Of a DNA stretch of 64,000 bases, positions 27,522-36,171 are shown piece after piece. Each line of letters opens with the position of its first letter. Positions within the stretch are counted from its first letter, which is position 1. A program made the translations under genes and the position numbers. Under the pieces are notes generated by a model. It worked only from the letters and a program-made list of their open reading frames with translations, had not been told where the DNA came from and ran no database searches. Source of the DNA: Candidatus Roizmanbacteria bacterium (GTDB taxonomy: Bacteria; Patescibacteriota; Microgenomatia; UBA1406; GWC2-37-13); NCBI GenBank assembly GCA_016215445.1, contig JACRJL010000003.1:404924-468923 (forward strand), read 5' to 3'.

Positions 27522-28358
27522 ATGAGGTCTGAATTTAAACCATTCGTACTCAATCCTTATGTAACCAGCAGTTCAATAAAACAACAGTTACTGACAAATG
27601 TCGGGTACAGATTTGTAAATAGCGGACAACTTGTGTCTGCCGTCGGTAATGCGGAAAAGAAAAACCCATTGATCATAAATGACAATGATCGTCAGAATCC
27701 AGTAGTCTTAGAAATTGCTCGTAGAAAGGCAGAAGGCTTGGCTAATCAATCACGCTTAATTGCCACGTTTGGCGGAGTTTATGTTCCTTTGGTTGTTAAC
27801 GACACGGTTTGGAACTTTAGTTTCAACCATGGACAGGATAAAACAAGAACTATCATCAATAAACCAGAGAACGAAGAAGATGTCGAAACCTTAAAGCAAT
27901 TTTATCAAGATGCAAGGGGTGCTTTGGTGTATTCATCGGCTGGTTTATGCGTAGCAACTCCAGACACAGAAAATCCCATTCCTTATTCAATGCTCACTAA
28001 ATTAAGGATCGGGCAGTGGTTGGGGAATGTCCCGGAAGATTATCTACCTGTCCCAAGTTTTTCTTTAGGAATAGACATTATCACCGCCTTGAAACAAGGA
28101 TATATAGATCCTCACGGGGAGATGAAATTTGAGCTGATTTTTTTTGATGATACAGAAACTGCCCATATCAAAGGTTTAAAAATTCCTATAAGAAGACAGT
28201 TAAATTTTGAAATGAGGTTACCTTATTTTGGAACAGACGACAACTTATCAATTATCAAAAGTCTAAGTAGCGGAATTATTCCACCGGAGATATTTGAAAG
28301 TGAAAAACTAAAATTAGTAAAACAAAAAAAATATGTATTTACTCAATCAAGAAGCTGA
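27522..28358 (+). CDS. Maf-like nucleotide pyrophosphatase, divergent
   Basis: 278 aa. I read a Maf-like layout: 'FVLNPYVTSSSIKQQLL' for the usual LASxSPRRxxLL, 'NPVVLEIARRKAEGLANQ' for the conserved A..KA, 'LVVNDTVW' for the DTVV metal site, and 'KPENEEDVETLKQF' for the KP.....A.. segment. Maf enzymes cleave non-canonical NTPs. The SxSPRR arginines are replaced and the protein is 80 aa longer than usual, so activity is uncertain. Its stop overlaps lysS by 12 bp. Confidence 0.45.
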   Translation: MRSEFKPFVLNPYVTSSSIKQQLLTNVGYRFVNSGQLVSAVGNAEKKNPLIINDNDRQNPVVLEIARRKAEGLANQSRLIATFGGVYVPLVVNDTVWNFSFNHGQDKTRTIINKPENEEDVETLKQFYQDARGALVYSSAGLCVATPDTENPIPYSMLTKLRIGQWLGNVPEDYLPVPSFSLGIDIITALKQGYIDPHGEMKFELIFFDDTETAHIKGLKIPIRRQLNFEMRLPYFGTDDNLSIIKSLSSGIIPPEIFESEKLKLVKQKKYVFTQSRS

Positions 28359-30647
28359 AACAATACCAGCTAATTCGATTTTTCCACCACAGTATTTTTG
28401 AATGAGTTCGATGCTTTCTTTCAAAGACTGCTCCACTTGAGTTCTTGTAATGTCATAAATACCGTCAATATTTAATATTATATTTTTTGTGTTTTCTGTA
28501 ACAGCGGTTCTTTGAGCGTCGCGATAGTTAAAGTAAATATTGTATCCACCTTCCTGATCAAAGTAGGCAAGATCAGTTTGTTTATATTTAGTAGATTCTT
28601 TATCTCCTAAAAGCAAAATTTCCTCTCCTGGTTTTGGAAATCTTAAAACTGTTGGAAATTTTAGTTTGTCATAGTCGAATGCACCTATTGACACCCTATG
28701 TTTCATAACAATCAGGTTATAGGCGTCGACGCAAGTATTAATTTCGTATAATCCTTTTTTCAAAGCGATCCTTCGAAGCAACGCTTCGGGCGAAGGCCTT
28801 TTTGAGTGCCAGTCGAGACCCATTTCTTTGTAAAGTTTTCTATAGGTAATAATCTCAGGATAAGAACCGATTAATTCATTGGTTAGATTAGATTGGGATT
28901 GGACAAATTTACTGATTTCCGAAGATAAGTCAGGGCTCGATTTTTTAATGTTAATATTTTTAATGACGGCAATTCCTATATTGATCGACGGATATTTTTT
29001 AGCCATGGTAGTGTCGATAGAAAAGACTTCTGGATTATTAAGAGTCGGGAACAGGTGAGAGGTTTTTGTTTCTTTTGTTTCTCCGCTTTTATAAATTTGA
29101 TCTAGTACTTTTTTTATTCCAAGTTGCTTTATCAGGTCACCTGCTTTAGGGCCGAATGATTTTCCTGTCAGACTATTATAGAAAACAGCAAAAGCTTCTC
29201 TTGGTTGAATGTCTGTTTGTTTGATAGTTTTAAAGACAATTTGTTGCGGATCCCCTACTTGTTTTTCAAGATTAACGCTGAGTAATTTTAGGAAGTTTTT
29301 TTGTTTCTCATTAGGTCTGAAAACTTTTTGTTGTACAGAAACTTTTTCCTCGGAATATACTTCAAGATAAATTTTTCCGAATTTAATTCTTTCTTCTAAA
29401 ATTTTAATCTCTTCATCAATCAATTTACCTTTTTTTTGATTTTCAAAAAAAAGGGTCAGGTTATTTTTTTTTGTTTTAAGTAAATTAAAAACGGTTCTAA
29501 ATCGTGGAAGAAATAATCTTTTTTTCGGCAAGGGGCTGACTTCAGAAAGTTCTATAATTCTGGCAAAATCAGCAGTGACTTCTCCGGCCTTTTTTTCGGG
29601 AATATTATTTTCCAGTTTCAAAAAGTAAGATTCAAGACAGCGGTCATAATCGTCAAAAAGGTTGGGTATTGTATCGCCATAAGGATTAAAATCTAGATGA
29701 GTTGATATAGGTGTTCTTACCTGCATGAAGCGGAATACTTCCGGAGGAAGAATTTGTGAAACTTCTTTTGCCGAAGAGCCAATACCTTTTGATGAGGACA
29801 TTTTTTTACCGCCAATAGTGAACCATTCATAACCACCCATCGCATCAGGTGGTTCAGTTTTAAGAATCTCTTTACAAAAATGGACGGCCATATCATAGGA
29901 CCCACCTTTTGACATATGGTCTTTGCCGGAGGATTCGATTGTGACTCCGATCACTTTCCAGTGGGCGGGCCAATCCAGTTTCCAGGGCAGTTTTCCATTT
30001 TCCATTTTTGGTTCGACCTTACCTTCATGACTACACCCTTTTGCCCATTCAACCGCCTTTGGTTCACAACGGTAATAAACAAATTCACCATCCCACTTAT
30101 ATACATTAGTGGTTCCTATTTTCCCGCATTTTTCGCAGATTGGATTATAAGGAAACCAATTGGGAGAGCGTTCTGCCTTGGCGACTGTTTTGTAGATTTC
30201 CCTTATCTTATCAGCCTTATTTAAAAACAGTTTGACGATTTCATCCATCTTCCCTGACCTATAAAGTTCGGACGACCAGATTACTTTTGGGTAGCAGTTG
30301 AGAGAGTTAAAAACTTCAATAAATTCCTTAGCATAATATTCGGCAAAAGATTTAAACCCTGGTTCTGGTGACGGAATTTTATAAAGAGGAAAACCCATAT
30401 ATTTTTCCCATTTATCTTTGTCGAGATAAGTAGGTAGTCCGTCCATAGGATCCATATCGTTGAAAACGTAAGATGACTTTGCATTGACGCCGATTTCTTT
30501 CAAAGCTTTATAGATCAGATCGTGGACAATGACACCACGGAGGGATCCGACATGGATTCTTCCCGAGGGCGTCTTCATATCGTCGGCCCATTCCAAAGGG
30601 AGATTCCTATCTTTAAATTTTTTCGCTTGTCTGTCAACCCAAATCAT
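28347..30647 (-). CDS. lysS: Class I lysyl-tRNA synthetase fused to a C-terminal B3/4 domain
   Basis: 766 aa. Residues 1 to about 520 are an archaeal-type class I LysRS: 'TPSGRIHVGSLRG' (HIGH-like, 27-39), a 'CEKCGK' zinc element at 171 and 'KKMSSSKG' (KMSKS, 281-288). Residues ~542-766 (28350-29024) match the solo B3/4 family related to the editing region of PheRS-beta: 'ALLRRIALKKGLYEINTCVDAYN', 'VSIGAFD' and 'YRDAQRTAVTENTKNIIL'. It is the third gene of a T-box-led operon, 20 bp after the deacetylase gene. The junction is a continuous frame with no sign of frameshift. Confidence 0.9.
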   Translation of the reverse strand: MIWVDRQAKKFKDRNLPLEWADDMKTPSGRIHVGSLRGVIVHDLIYKALKEIGVNAKSSYVFNDMDPMDGLPTYLDKDKWEKYMGFPLYKIPSPEPGFKSFAEYYAKEFIEVFNSLNCYPKVIWSSELYRSGKMDEIVKLFLNKADKIREIYKTVAKAERSPNWFPYNPICEKCGKIGTTNVYKWDGEFVYYRCEPKAVEWAKGCSHEGKVEPKMENGKLPWKLDWPAHWKVIGVTIESSGKDHMSKGGSYDMAVHFCKEILKTEPPDAMGGYEWFTIGGKKMSSSKGIGSSAKEVSQILPPEVFRFMQVRTPISTHLDFNPYGDTIPNLFDDYDRCLESYFLKLENNIPEKKAGEVTADFARIIELSEVSPLPKKRLFLPRFRTVFNLLKTKKNNLTLFFENQKKGKLIDEEIKILEERIKFGKIYLEVYSEEKVSVQQKVFRPNEKQKNFLKLLSVNLEKQVGDPQQIVFKTIKQTDIQPREAFAVFYNSLTGKSFGPKAGDLIKQLGIKKVLDQIYKSGETKETKTSHLFPTLNNPEVFSIDTTMAKKYPSINIGIAVIKNINIKKSSPDLSSEISKFVQSQSNLTNELIGSYPEIITYRKLYKEMGLDWHSKRPSPEALLRRIALKKGLYEINTCVDAYNLIVMKHRVSIGAFDYDKLKFPTVLRFPKPGEEILLLGDKESTKYKQTDLAYFDQEGGYNIYFNYRDAQRTAVTENTKNIILNIDGIYDITRTQVEQSLKESIELIQKYCGGKIELAGIVSAS

Positions 30648-30667: not shown

Positions 30668-31663
30668 TTAACTAAAACCGTTGAGAAATGCCACTACATT
30701 GTCTCCGAGAAGCTTTGTATTATAGCCACCTTCTTGGACAATTAACGCGGGCAGTCTCAAGGAATTTATAGTTTTTGCCATTTTTTTAAAATAGTTAGTC
30801 GTCAATTTAAATCCGCCGATCGGATCGTCTTTGTGGGTATCTTGGCCAAAGGCTATAATCAAATATCTGGGTTTAAAATCTTTTATTTTTACGACGGCTT
30901 TTTCCAAGGTTTTTTGATAAAGATCATTGGCTGTTCCTTTAGGAAGAGGATAGTTAATATTTTTTCCTTCTCCTTTTCCAATTCCCTTTTCGTCGGAAAA
31001 TCCCGTAAAGAAGGGGAATTTCCAGTTAGGGTCAGCGTGGATGGAAACTGTCAGTACGTCTCCCCGATCATAAAAAATATTCTGGGTTCCATTACCATGA
31101 TGAAAATCTATATCTAAAATAGCAACTTTTCCATCTCGACTAAGATGTTCGGCAGCGATTGACGTGTTATTCAAATAACAATAACCTCCCATTTTCGCTT
31201 TTTCAGCATGATGTCCTGGAGGACGACAAAGAGCATAACCGACTTTTATCTGATTAGTTTTTATATCAGTTGCCAATTCATAAGCCAAAGAAGAAGATTC
31301 AAGAGCAATTTCGAAAATCCCCTTATACATTGGTGTGTATAGATCAAAAGAATATTTTCCTAATCGAGCTAAAGGATTTATCAATCTTTTGTTTTTGTTT
31401 AAATCATTATAAGGAAAAACTGATGGGTATGAATAAACTGACCAATTTTTTATAAAATCGATGTAATTTTTGTCGTGAACTACTTCGATTAATCGAAGTG
31501 GAACACGTTTCGTTAATTTACTGATTTTAAACCCGTTGACTATCAAACTTTTTTTTATATTTTCTACGCGTGACGGGATTTCGGAATGCGGATCTTTCTC
31601 GCCGTTAAAAATTTCATAACCGGGGACATGGGAAAGGTGTCTCTGAGAATAAAGAATTTTCAT
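30668..31663 (-). CDS. Histone-deacetylase-superfamily amidohydrolase
   Basis: 331 aa zinc hydrolase of the HDAC/AcuC/acetylpolyamine amidohydrolase family, which removes acetyl groups from lysines or amines. Catalytic elements are present: 'CRPPGHHAEKAKMGGYCYLN' (His-His pair), 'DIDFHHGNGT' (zinc Asp and His), 'FGQDTHKDDPIGG' (second zinc Asp) and 'EGGY'. It overlaps the acetyltransferase gene by ATGA, so the two are translated together. Bacterial substrates range from acetyl-CoA synthetase to acetylated polyamines; none can be assigned here. Confidence 0.9.
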   Translation of the reverse strand: MKILYSQRHLSHVPGYEIFNGEKDPHSEIPSRVENIKKSLIVNGFKISKLTKRVPLRLIEVVHDKNYIDFIKNWSVYSYPSVFPYNDLNKNKRLINPLARLGKYSFDLYTPMYKGIFEIALESSSLAYELATDIKTNQIKVGYALCRPPGHHAEKAKMGGYCYLNNTSIAAEHLSRDGKVAILDIDFHHGNGTQNIFYDRGDVLTVSIHADPNWKFPFFTGFSDEKGIGKGEGKNINYPLPKGTANDLYQKTLEKAVVKIKDFKPRYLIIAFGQDTHKDDPIGGFKLTTNYFKKMAKTINSLRLPALIVQEGGYNTKLLGDNVVAFLNGFS

Positions 31664-32694
31664 GATTTTTTATTGTATAAATTTATAATTTGTTTTATTA
31701 CCTCTGGTGAATACAAGTTGACTATATTTTCTCGCGGTAAGACGGCTACGGCAAAATCTCTCAAAAATCTAAAAGGTATTCCTCTATCTTCTAAGGATTG
31801 TTTCTCAAATACAGAGTTGCCTGATGCGCCGTCAACAACAGCCACATTATAAGAAAGAATTTGAGAAACCCCCTCTGTTTTTGGAATGATGAAGCCTGTA
31901 GAAGCTCCTATTGCTGTCGAGGTAGAAGAGGTGTTAAACTCCGCGGCAATTACTGTTGTTGAAGCGTCCTGGGAATAGTAAGTGTCGCTTAATACTTGGG
32001 CGACTAAACCGGCGACAGTTGCCGTACATAGTCCGCGACCCTCATAACCGTCAGTCGTACTATATTCCGTGGTTTCAATATATTTAATTCCGGAAAACTC
32101 CATTGCTTCGGCAGTACTGGCGGCAACAATTTTACCTGTATTAGTATCCCTTATGGCGCTAAACCAGAGATCTTCTTGTTTGGATCCAATCGATTCGATA
32201 AAATTTGTAATCTGATCTCTAGTCCAGCCAAAGCGTTCCCATAAGGCAAATAGATCTTCTTGATCGTTTGCTTGCAGTTGGTTGGTTAAATTAAATCCAT
32301 CGGGAATGGCTTTTATTTTTTCCAAAGGCGTTTTATGATTGTTTCTGTTTTCAATTAAGTTTTGAATATTTACGCCTTGAGGAGGGGAATCATGGTAATT
32401 TTCACCCAAGAAAACAATTGCCGAGTTGTCATCTGTCACCAAGTCCATAGGTATAACTGCTTCTATTGGCAAACCTGTTTGTTTCGCTTGAGTCAAAACA
32501 TCATTCGAGCATAAGCTTCTCAAGACAACTCTTCTGTAACCATTAGATGAATCTTTCAATTTCTTGAATCTAGAACTTAGTTCTGAAATTGTGTTAACCG
32601 GACTATCTAAAGTCTGGTATAGTCTGGAAAACGTTCTTGGTTCCGCTTCACCTGGTTTTCCGACACTTGTATTGATATTTTCAGTTCCGGCCAT
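31660..32694 (-). CDS. GNAT-like acetyltransferase, first gene of a T-box operon
   Basis: 344 aa. The acetyl-CoA site is suggested by 'YEGRGLCTATVAGLVAQVL' (R/Q-x-x-G-x-G/A). The run 'STAEAMEFSGIKYIETTEY' before it and the C-terminal strand pattern recall AblB-type beta-lysine acetyltransferases, but this is from memory and not firm. The ATG lies directly after the terminator T-tract of the leader; GAGGA within the terminator stem is the likely ribosome-binding site. It overlaps the deacetylase gene by ATGA. Confidence 0.6.
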   Translation of the reverse strand: MAGTENINTSVGKPGEAEPRTFSRLYQTLDSPVNTISELSSRFKKLKDSSNGYRRVVLRSLCSNDVLTQAKQTGLPIEAVIPMDLVTDDNSAIVFLGENYHDSPPQGVNIQNLIENRNNHKTPLEKIKAIPDGFNLTNQLQANDQEDLFALWERFGWTRDQITNFIESIGSKQEDLWFSAIRDTNTGKIVAASTAEAMEFSGIKYIETTEYSTTDGYEGRGLCTATVAGLVAQVLSDTYYSQDASTTVIAAEFNTSSTSTAIGASTGFIIPKTEGVSQILSYNVAVVDGASGNSVFEKQSLEDRGIPFRFLRDFAVAVLPRENIVNLYSPEVIKQIINLYNKKS

Positions 32695-32743
32695 AAAAAA
32701 ACGTCCTCGAAAAATTAGTAACGATACTAATCTTTCAAGGACG
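32695..32743 (-). terminator. T-box terminator hairpin
   Basis: Long stem CGTCCTTGAAAGATTAGTA against TACTAATTTTTCGAGGACG with a tiny loop, then seven Ts ending at the operon ATG. It includes the GAGGA that probably serves as ribosome-binding site, so folding could block both transcription and translation. Confidence 0.85.
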
Positions 32744-32949
32744 CATTTATGCGCGGTACCACCTTGATTTATTTCAGCTTATATTCTGTTTCGTCAACAG
32801 ATTTCGACCGAAAACACTTGGCAGAATGTTCTGCTTAAAGCTGTAACAGGCTTTTCCCGTCGGGGTCTAATTTCCAATTTGGATTTCTTCCCGAGACTGC
32901 GAAGGTCTTGCCCGCCGAATCGGTGGGGTCCTTCGTGAACGTCTTTAGA
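32695..32949 (-). promoter_or_regulatory. T-box riboswitch leader (transcription attenuation)
   Basis: On the minus strand the leader contains the T-box core TGGTACCGCG (32752-32761) inside an antiterminator (32737-32765: AAGG...CCTT outer and GCGC/GCGT inner pairing). This competes with a long terminator (32702-32743 plus seven Ts at 32695-32701). Upstream are several hairpins: a Stem I-like element closed by AGAC/GTCT, with an internal loop holding AAG (32907-32909, a lysine triplet) as candidate specifier, then small hairpins. Stem I is much shorter than usual. Uncharged tRNA would favour expression of the acetyltransferase-deacetylase-LysRS operon. Confidence 0.88.
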
Positions 32950-32955
32950 AATTTA

Positions 32956-32983
32956 ATTATAAAGCAAAATTATTTAATATCAA
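32956..32983 (-). promoter_or_regulatory. Promoter of the T-box operon inside the 3' end of greA
   Basis: Minus strand TTGATA (32978-32983), 16-bp spacer, TATAAT (32956-32961). The -35 box lies within the last greA codons. The predicted start is near 32949, giving a leader of about 255 nt. Confidence 0.65.
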
Positions 32984-33428
32984 CTATTTTATATTTTATT
33001 TTACCGGCCGGAATTTCAACCTCGACCAAATCGCCGACTCTCTTGCCGACCAAAGCGTGTCCGATAGGCGAAGTATGGGAAAGTTTTTTATTCATTGGGT
33101 CAGCTTCGAACTCTCCGACTATCTGAAACATTTCCTGTTTTCCTTCAGCTTCAACAATGACAGTTGTTCCGACTTCAACCGTGTGGCTGCCATTGTGATT
33201 TTCTACGACCTCGACGGTTTTAAGAATTTCTTCAATCTCCTGGATTCTTCCTTCGACAAAAGCCAGTTCTTCCTTGGCTGCCGTATACTCGCTGTTTTCC
33301 GATAGATCTCCCATAGATCGCGCTTTATGCAATCTTTCTACAGCATAAGGTCTTTTGGCTTTTGTCAATTCCTCGAGTTCTTTTTTTAGACTTTCATATC
33401 CTTCTTTTGTCAGTTGATTGGTTTTCAT
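32970..33428 (-). CDS. greA: Transcription elongation factor GreA
   Basis: 152 aa, full length. The N-terminal coiled coil with the acidic tip ('GDLSENSEYTAAKEE') enters the RNA polymerase secondary channel to trigger cleavage of backtracked RNA. The C-terminal FKBP-like domain shows 'SPIGHALVGKRVGDLVEVE'. A hairpin with a U-tract lies just upstream of the start (see leader feature). Its 3' end contains the -35 box of the T-box operon. Confidence 0.96.
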   Translation of the reverse strand: MKTNQLTKEGYESLKKELEELTKAKRPYAVERLHKARSMGDLSENSEYTAAKEELAFVEGRIQEIEEILKTVEVVENHNGSHTVEVGTTVIVEAEGKQEMFQIVGEFEADPMNKKLSHTSPIGHALVGKRVGDLVEVEIPAGKIKYKIVDIK

Positions 33429-35832: not shown

Positions 35833-36171
35833 TTACCTTATAACTGTACCGTTTTTTAAATTTTTGTCAAGGGCAAAAAGCCTGAATTTTTCCGGGTCGT
35901 CAGCAACGAGCATCATACCATTTGAGTCTTTACCCATAATCTTCTTTGCTTCAAGGTTGGCGAGAAAAACATATTTATTGCCGATAAGAGCTTCCGGAGT
36001 ATAGAATTTGGCCAGTCCGGATAATATTTCGACTGTTCCATAATCTTCGCCAAGGTCTACCAACATCAGAATCATATTTTTTGATCCTTCGACCAGTGAC
36101 GCTTCTTTAACTTCACCGACACGAAAGTCCATTTTATTAAAATCCAAAAAAGTAGTTAGATCTTTTTTCAT
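35833..36171 (-). CDS. Stand-alone tRNA-binding OB-fold protein (Trbp111/MetRS C-terminal type)
   Basis: 112 aa. 'FNKMDFRVGEVKEASLVEGS', 'VEILSGLAKFYTPEALIGNK' and 'ANLEAKKIMGKDSNGMMLVA' match the dimeric tRNA-binding domain at the MetRS C-terminus or the free Trbp111/CsaA proteins. As a separate protein it may bind tRNA as a cofactor for a synthetase. TATAAT on the minus strand (36176-36181) lies 4 bp before the start. It diverges from the Nudix gene. Confidence 0.85.
   Translation of the reverse strand: MKKDLTTFLDFNKMDFRVGEVKEASLVEGSKNMILMLVDLGEDYGTVEILSGLAKFYTPEALIGNKYVFLANLEAKKIMGKDSNGMMLVADDPEKFRLFALDKNLKNGTVIR

Follow-up and report, generated by a model that had tools for sequence, protein, structure and literature searches.

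We analyzed a 64,000-nucleotide stretch of DNA (here called the window) from contig JACRJL010000003.1 of a Candidatus Roizmanbacteria bacterium (assembly GCA_016215445.1), in which one gene encodes a class I lysyl-tRNA synthetase (LysRS) with a B3/4 domain at its C terminus. An earlier note, made from the letters alone, had reported an uninterrupted frame of 766 residues here without naming a strand; the frame is present and lies on the minus strand, the plus strand there being full of stops (Table 1). The note had also recognized a class I LysRS with HIGH-like and KMSKS motifs, and the family profiles agreed: PF01921 matched residues 3 to 366 (E = 4.3e-88), TIGR00467 scored 327.5 bits against a cut-off of 147.55, and the solved class I LysRS 1irx was matched with an E value of 2e-46. 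In structure, 1irx aligned with the modeled core over 482 positions and stops where the B3/4 domain of the window protein starts. The HIGH-like H32-V-G and the K282-M-S-S-S-K motifs were invariant or nearly so among 63 aligned fusions, with H32, G34, K282, M283, S286, and K287 invariant. The protein is predicted to charge tRNA-Lys with lysine. It is the sole LysRS detected in a genome estimated to be 97% complete; class II LysRS was not found there, the two class II matches being AspRS and an EpmA-like protein. An EpmA/GenX-like protein of this genome (L135, C3:359944-360912) scored just below its cut-off.

Table 1. Features of the LysRS-B3/4 locus (positions in the window unless a relative is named; residue numbers are those of the 766-residue protein)
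Feature	Position	Strand	Basis
Class I LysRS with C-terminal CtdA-like B3/4 domain	28347..30647	-	766 residues; profile, AlphaFold2 model, fold comparison
LysRS core, residues 1-523 (catalytic domain and helical C-terminal region)	29079..30647	-	TIGR00467 at 2-517; 1irx_A, Z 40.3 over model residues 2-523
B3/4 domain, residues 538-766 (Pfam core 602-754)	28350..29036	-	Profile matches, AlphaFold2 model, fold comparison
Asn644 codon	28716..28718	-	Aligns with Asn of the bacterial PheRS T/S-N pair; 80/80 LysRS-clade rows
Histone-deacetylase-family protein, 331 residues, second gene of presumed operon	30668..31663	-	PF00850, E = 5.9e-70
GNAT-fold protein, 344 residues, first gene of presumed operon	31660..32694	-	AlphaFold2 model, pLDDT 86.1; GNAT fold matches
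Intrinsic terminator, 20 pairs and T run, competing with the T-box antiterminator	32701..32744	-	Ends at the GNAT start codon
T-box leader (tRNA-sensing riboswitch)	32734..32948	-	RF00230, full model 1-219; GGTGGTACCGCG at 32763-32752
Candidate specifier codon AAG (Lys)	32907..32909	-	Unpaired, 3' side of stem I
Promoter-like TTGATA-16-TATAAT directly before the T-box	32956..32983	-	11/12 consensus bases
greA, conserved upstream neighbor of LysRS of both classes	32970..33428	-	PF03449, PF01272
M20 ArgE/DapE-family deacylase between GNAT-fold gene and LysRS-B3/4 (relatives)	L056 2264-3400; L058 2211-3356; L068 2227-3351; L070 2233-3360

The limits proposed earlier for the B3/4 domain (residues 542 to 766) were right to within a few residues, and the profile search suggested with them did give a match: PF03483 covered the Pfam core with an E value of 1.4e-24 and 87.1 bits, the curated cut-off being 29.3. 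An AlphaFold2 model built from 63 sequences was confident in both the core and the B3/4 domain, with a mean predicted local distance difference test (pLDDT) score of 91.8. The modeled domain superposed on CtdA (9f7e) with a Z score of 24.5 over 224 of 231 residues (root mean square deviation, 2.9) and on residues 202 to 397 of the β subunit of phenylalanyl-tRNA synthetase (PheRS-β; 6oz5) with a Z score of 18.7 over 172 residues. The profile ranking of solved B3/4 relatives was the same, with CtdA at the top (9f7e, E = 1.5e-31; 9mkl, E = 1.1e-29) and the best PheRS-β at 2e-10. Thus, CtdA is the nearest solved B3/4 protein by profile and by fold, and PheRS-β is more distant; the relation to PheRS-β given in the earlier note was correct but incomplete. 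Besides, a free-standing or PheRS-β gene misjoined to the LysRS gene was rejected, the PheRS-β B3/4 domain of this genome being a separate, distant sequence.

The fusion was then counted among relatives, a survey that the earlier note had proposed, and its reach was wider than the note supposed. Among 379 genomes sampled across the phylum, five had full class I fusions (G000, G007, G029, G167, and G121), and B3/4 relatives occurred in other frames. Among 372 genomes sampled from the class, class I LysRS was fused in 46 cases and unfused in 83 (46/129 by hand count, leaving out the split or partial matches of G505, G591, and G532). Chance or an assembly artefact is ruled out by these fused genomes and by the many independent assemblies. 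When named genomes were scanned with the B3/4 domain alone as query, 210 loci were confirmed, and the best 80 of these were kept for partner counts: the partner was class I LysRS in 68, class II LysRS in 11, and a contig end in 1. All 79 kept loci not cut by a contig end were thus fused to LysRS, and the free-standing state of CtdA was not among them. The hosts of the kept loci were mostly Roizman-, Gottesman-, Levy-, and Daviesbacteria, with WWE3, Dojkabacteria, CPR3, and Wirth-, Shapiro-, and Woesebacteria as further hosts; the nearest kin of the window domain were Roizmanbacteria (83% identity in the domain). L115, a record labeled Deltaproteobacteria, falls among Gottesmanbacteria in the tree; it was probably misbinned.

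To our knowledge, no synthetase other than LysRS exists in two evolutionarily unrelated forms. That class I and class II LysRS are unrelated is stated in passages of two earlier papers (PMC7373986, PMC2916919), and the B3/4 domains fused to class II LysRS were up to 62% identical to that of the window. In a B3/4 tree of 103 rows (near-identical fused rows thinned; CtdA itself not a row), LysRS-type domains formed one clade with a support of 97 in the Shimodaira-Hasegawa-like approximate likelihood ratio test, apart from the arginyl-tRNA synthetase (ArgRS)-fused and free-standing domains with which a CtdA-like protein would group. The long branch L008 stood at the base of this clade. In a further analysis of 81 rows (LG+G4, bootstrap not settled; L038 and L008 left out), the LysRS class labels changed 7 to 8 times on the B3/4 tree, a single clade of all class II rows was rejected by the approximately unbiased test (p-AU = 1.85e-5), and the Levybacteria class II fusions L085 and L114 nested among class I fusions. 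In part of the loci, LysRS of both classes share a chromosomal setting, with greA upstream and ham1 and serS downstream, and the simplest reading is that either the synthetase or the domain was exchanged at one locus. Single disagreements between the core and B3/4 trees (L063 and the Daviesbacteria L091 and L104) mean that the histories of core and domain differ. The idea that B3/4 fits the organism tree better than the core does was not supported, since the four taxon labels required 5 changes on each of the two trees (44 rows). Because one clade spans both LysRS classes with at least six class switches, the trees point to a domain that tracks lysine or tRNA-Lys and not a synthetase fold. As a side observation, the fused class II LysRS of L084, L105, L128, L129, and L133 have G-x-G-x-SER in the motif 3 region in place of the usual GIGIDR.

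The conservation of residues was counted over 80 rows of the LysRS clade (66 class I and 14 class II, without L038 and L008), with CtdA included as an alignment row and L053 left out of the outgroup. Asp612, Arg626, Asn637, Val640, Asp641, Asn644, Tyr695, Asp697, and Asp710 were invariant in the rows of both classes. Among these, Asp641 and Asn644 were also found in PheRS and CtdA sequences, and Asp697 was kept in all rows of both sets. At the position of Asn644, the Escherichia coli PheRS-β and the PheRS-β of this genome likewise have Asn, and the Asn of the PheRS T/S-N pair has been placed near the hydrolytic water or ester bond, as Asn250 in Thermus and Asn264 in Mycobacterium tuberculosis (excerpts of PMC3275996 and PMC12447630). 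The pocket suggested for checking in a structure model is not absent, with one nuance: the bacterial PheRS His (position 265 in E. coli) is Gly655 here, and Gly stands there in CtdA and, according to passages of PMC3275996, in archaeal and eukaryotic PheRS. CtdA (PMC10018355; 9f7e and 9mkl) shares the B3/4 fold over the whole domain and has Val640, Asp641, Tyr643, Asn644, Gly655, Asp697, Asn707, Arg709, Arg713, and Thr714 in common with the window protein, but has Lys, Glu, and Gln where the latter has Asp612, Phe657, and Asp710. Indeed, at Asp612 and Asp710 the relatives differ, with Asn/Lys/His and Glu/Gln prevailing, and Phe657 (100% of class I and 71% of class II rows) stands where relatives have Glu. 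PheRS-β has the same fold with Asp641 and Asn644 in common, and differs in its His265 and in a weaker sequence match.

The domain is optional. In a class I core tree of 89 rows (L123 and L092 left out and near-identical fused rows thinned), the fused or unfused state changed 15 times, at least 9 of these changes being forced by starred branches, and the sister of the window core is an unfused LysRS of the same genus (L145) whose core is 79% identical. These comings and goings are as expected of a proofreading add-on rather than of a part required for charging.

The gene stands in a presumed operon behind a T-box leader. The histone-deacetylase (HDAC)-family gene, the only member found in the genome, ends 20 nucleotides before the LysRS start and is overlapped by 4 nucleotides by the GNAT-fold gene, whose product had no Pfam match above a cut-off and matched GNAT structures with Z scores up to 12.0 over residues 131 to 331 of its model. 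The leader matched RF00230 with 43.7 bits (E = 4e-7 in 10.5 kb), which is below the Rfam gathering score of 93. It contains an exact GGTGGTACCGCG, for which the chance expectation is 0.17 per window with one mismatch allowed, and, as T-boxes do, a conserved GGUGGNACCGCG and a competing terminator ahead of the start codon; exact GGTGGNACCGCG occurs once in the genome. The predicted antiterminator had a free energy of -10.9 kcal/mol and the terminator one of -27.8 kcal/mol. Related leaders in L055, L056, L058, and L068 aligned with that of the window, and 26 of 67 predicted pairs had changes on both sides among the five leaders. An unpaired CAAGA was invariant in all five, and stem I is short in the window; AAG (Lys), matching the regulated synthetase, is the putative specifier in a presumptive reading frame. 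The promoter-like site before the leader is to be read with the overall promoter scan, in which such sites were no more frequent than in shuffled sequence.

We also looked for the 12-base T-box motif, with one mismatch at most, in the stretches of up to 3.5 kb that precede 84 LysRS genes; it matched 8 times, compared with a single match on the opposite strand. Four of the 8 (L055, L056, L058, and L068) share the window leader, L111 and L128 look T-box-like, and L059 and L088 look like chance matches. No T-box came out of an Rfam search of six loci, although by motif L056 does have one, which means that the Rfam search misses members. In a survey of the genus, the motif was found in 9 of 20 genomes, with one mismatch allowed and one control hit. 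T-boxes before LysRS were known by 2010 in four species, each with a second LysRS (excerpts of PMC2916919). The T-box LysRS of Bacillus cereus and three other species resembles the window system in having a tRNA-Lys-sensing T-box before a class I LysRS, but there it always accompanied a second LysRS outside T-box control, whereas the T-box of the window precedes the sole detected LysRS and lies ahead of the GNAT and deacetylase genes as well. New here is thus a T-box, with AAG (Lys) as its putative specifier, at the head of an operon with the only LysRS detected in the genome, which bears on the rarity of T-box-controlled LysRS, a puzzle stated in passages of PMC2916919. In the literature searched, which covered few subscription journals, we found no paper on T-boxes in these bacteria. 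At L111 (474-3283), a D-Ala-D-Ala dipeptidase-like gene and a fused GNAT-DAP epimerase gene stand, in that order, between the T-box-like leader and LysRS-B3/4.

The acetyltransferase and deacetylase neighbors, to which the earlier note had tied the editing function, are real and recurrent, and in relatives an M20 ArgE/DapE-type enzyme, unrelated to HDAC, can take the place of HDAC in the deacylase slot. In the position directly upstream of LysRS, the 68 class I fusions had HDAC 6 times, M20 10 times, aspartokinase 5 times, and DapF once; in the 11 class II fusions, M20, Asd, and DapF each occurred there once. Deacylases of the HDAC or M20 type therefore adjoin LysRS in no more than 16 of the 68 class I fusions and in 1 of the 11 class II fusions. 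Taken together, genes of lysine-supply type were directly upstream in 25 of 79 fused loci and 1 of 29 unfused class I loci (an HDAC; Fisher p = 0.0018, uncorrected for relatedness). When only aspartokinase, Asd, and DapF were counted, fused and unfused loci did not differ significantly (p = 0.105). Neighbor names came partly from BLAST to annotated members, and the fused loci are mostly from Microgenomates, so that the link of fused LysRS to lysine supply is suggestive only. In this genome, de novo diaminopimelate synthesis was discounted: the dihydrodipicolinate synthase family had no match, and a LysA-like frame fell below the cut-off.

We consider it probable that the window protein is a class I LysRS carrying its own post-transfer editing site, in cis, for mischarged tRNA-Lys. 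The core would charge tRNA-Lys, at times with a lysine-like wrong amino acid; the CCA end would leave the synthetic site for the B3/4 pocket at the C terminus, and a positioned water would hydrolyze the ester bond there, as in CtdA and PheRS-β. Candidate substrates would be ornithine, diaminopimelate, N-acylated lysine or diaminopimelate from the co-localized lysine-supply genes, or a toxic lysine analog. The enzyme is probably made on demand in this genome, with a T-box bearing a Lys codon at the head of the GNAT-deacetylase-LysRS operon. We infer tRNA-Lys as the target because the two unrelated LysRS classes carry fused B3/4 domains of a single subclade. Of the proposal made in the earlier note, that the domain edits mischarged tRNA-Lys, a real B3/4 domain, a proven deacylase as its nearest relative, and its presence on both LysRS classes hold, while the activity and the substrate are presumptive; among the substrates named there, β-lysine is disfavored, no member of the lysine 2,3-aminomutase family having been found in the genome, though an EpmA-like protein is present.

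Several points speak against this account. The mutual placement of core and B3/4 domain is uncertain in the AlphaFold2 model (predicted template modeling score, 0.60), so that a path for the CCA end is only conjectural; the catalytic roles of residues are carried over from PheRS by alignment and are to that extent presumptive; the closest relatives, such as L145 of the same genus, manage without the domain, so the need for it is not universal; and the B3/4 domain of the class II fusion L038 groups with free-standing ones, outside the LysRS clade. By its place in the tree, L038 is an independent fusion, and LysRS-B3/4 fusions are accordingly not all of one type.

A non-catalytic appendage that aids tRNA binding or enzyme stability would accord with the EMAPII-like tRNA-binding domains that are fused to LysRS-B3/4 (L036) or encoded freely directly before it (L063, L064, and L123), and with the B2-like extra domain reported on a few Microgenomates LysRS (passages of PMC5370408). 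We nevertheless think this quite unlikely, because the residues of active B3/4 domains are kept (Asn644, Asp641, and Asp697, as counted above) and because the B3/4 domain is closer to that of the window than the core is in 66 of 68 fusions, a figure biased by the choice of loci by B3/4 similarity. It is highly improbable, although CtdA is the nearest solved relative, that the domain is a canavanyl-tRNA(Arg) deacylase of the CtdA type merely tethered to LysRS: the LysRS-fused domains make up a clade with distinctive Asp612, Phe657, and Asp710, they are carried by both LysRS classes, and the phylum also has distinct ArgRS-B3/4 fusions, one of which shares a genome (G524) with LysRS-B3/4.

The order of T-box, GNAT, deacylase, and LysRS, with HDAC or M20 in the deacylase slot of relatives, and the uncorrected enrichment of lysine-supply type genes upstream of fused loci would suit a domain that removes N-acetyl-lysyl-tRNA(Lys), or something similar, arising as the GNAT and deacetylase of the operon handle N-acylated lysine or diaminopimelate. 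This is unlikely in our view, since 54 of 79 fused loci have no lysine-supply type gene directly upstream, the unfused L146 has HDAC, and class I LysRS would have to charge ε-acylated lysine. As a general substrate, acetyl-lysine was not supported, most fusions lacking the GNAT and deacylase genes. Tentatively, it is possible that the domain is a lysine-specific module tied to tRNA-Lys and not to a synthetase, beside which cores have been swapped repeatedly in Patescibacteria, also between the two LysRS classes, because it is needed to remove a lysine-like amino acid that lysine-supply enzymes encoded alongside LysRS make or release (acyltransferase, HDAC- or ArgE/DapE-type deacylase, aspartokinase, Asd, or DapF), with a single T-box response to lysine starvation, through the sole LysRS, in the lineage of the window.

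Cis editing by the fused domain would differ from what is known. CtdA is free-standing and acts on tRNA(Arg), deacylating canavanyl-tRNA(Arg) without its synthetase (excerpts of PMC10018355), whereas the window domain is fused to LysRS. PheRS edits Tyr-tRNA(Phe) (passages of PMC3275996). The editing described for LysRS in the passages of PMC7373986 has a similar goal, namely, keeping wrong amino acids off tRNA-Lys, but it acts before transfer in the synthetic site, whereas the window protein has a separate, predicted hydrolytic domain fused in cis. The nearest mention that we found is an additional C-terminal PheRS-β-like part on two LysRS of the same bacterial group, Microgenomates; that part is B2-like, an RNA-binding OB fold, and the passages of PMC5370408 do not mention B3/4 on LysRS. 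No description of B3/4 on LysRS was found in the literature searched, which, covering few subscription journals, is weak evidence of novelty. As synthetases with editing modules from elsewhere, SepRS with a ThrRS editing domain is another natural fusion (excerpts of PMC8762117), and the engineered iodo-TyrRS with a transplanted PheRS B3/B4 (excerpts of PMC3275996) likewise has a B3/4 module on another synthetase; the latter is man-made, whereas we found natural fusions of B3/4 to tyrosyl-tRNA synthetase (TyrRS). If cis editing proves true, a domain common to both LysRS forms would imply that proofreading evolved around the pair of tRNA and amino acid, independent of the catalyst, and LysRS-B3/4 offers a natural experiment with one domain, two cores, and many swaps.

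B3/4 also occurs elsewhere in the phylum. Less similar, N-terminal domains were found on ArgRS (L039 to L042, L044, and L046 by Pfam; L136 to L140 by BLAST), where a CtdA-like domain would fit cis editing of canavanyl-tRNA(Arg), and on TyrRS (L045, 1823-3787, minus strand; L043, 1666-3912, minus strand), the L043 protein being a double editing fusion of tRNA_edit (YbaK type), B3/4, and TyrRS. Free-standing domains were found at six loci (L047 to L052), and a plasmid search for B3/4 gave free-standing relatives only. L053 was rejected as a CtdA, there being no canavanine genes beside it. Two kinds of B3/4 occur together in G524 (class II LysRS and ArgRS) and G280 (class II LysRS and TyrRS). B3/4 would accordingly seem to be a module in general use among Patescibacteria, on LysRS of both classes, ArgRS, and TyrRS, and free-standing.

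Some LysRS-B3/4 proteins have further domains: HD (L034 and L037), DUF2000 (L037), and an EMAPII-like tRNA_bind inside the protein (L036). Other additions, among L034/L131, L037, L036, L121, L133, and L099, are C-terminal extensions, and the 1,091-residue protein of L123 (2421-5693) has about 300 extra residues between core and B3/4. The window itself encodes a free-standing EMAPII-like tRNA-binding protein (35833-36171, minus strand). Finally, a weakly Maf-like gene (27522-28358, plus strand) runs in the opposite direction to the LysRS-B3/4 gene and overlaps it by 12 nucleotides at its 3' end; it still adjoins LysRS in the unfused relative L145.

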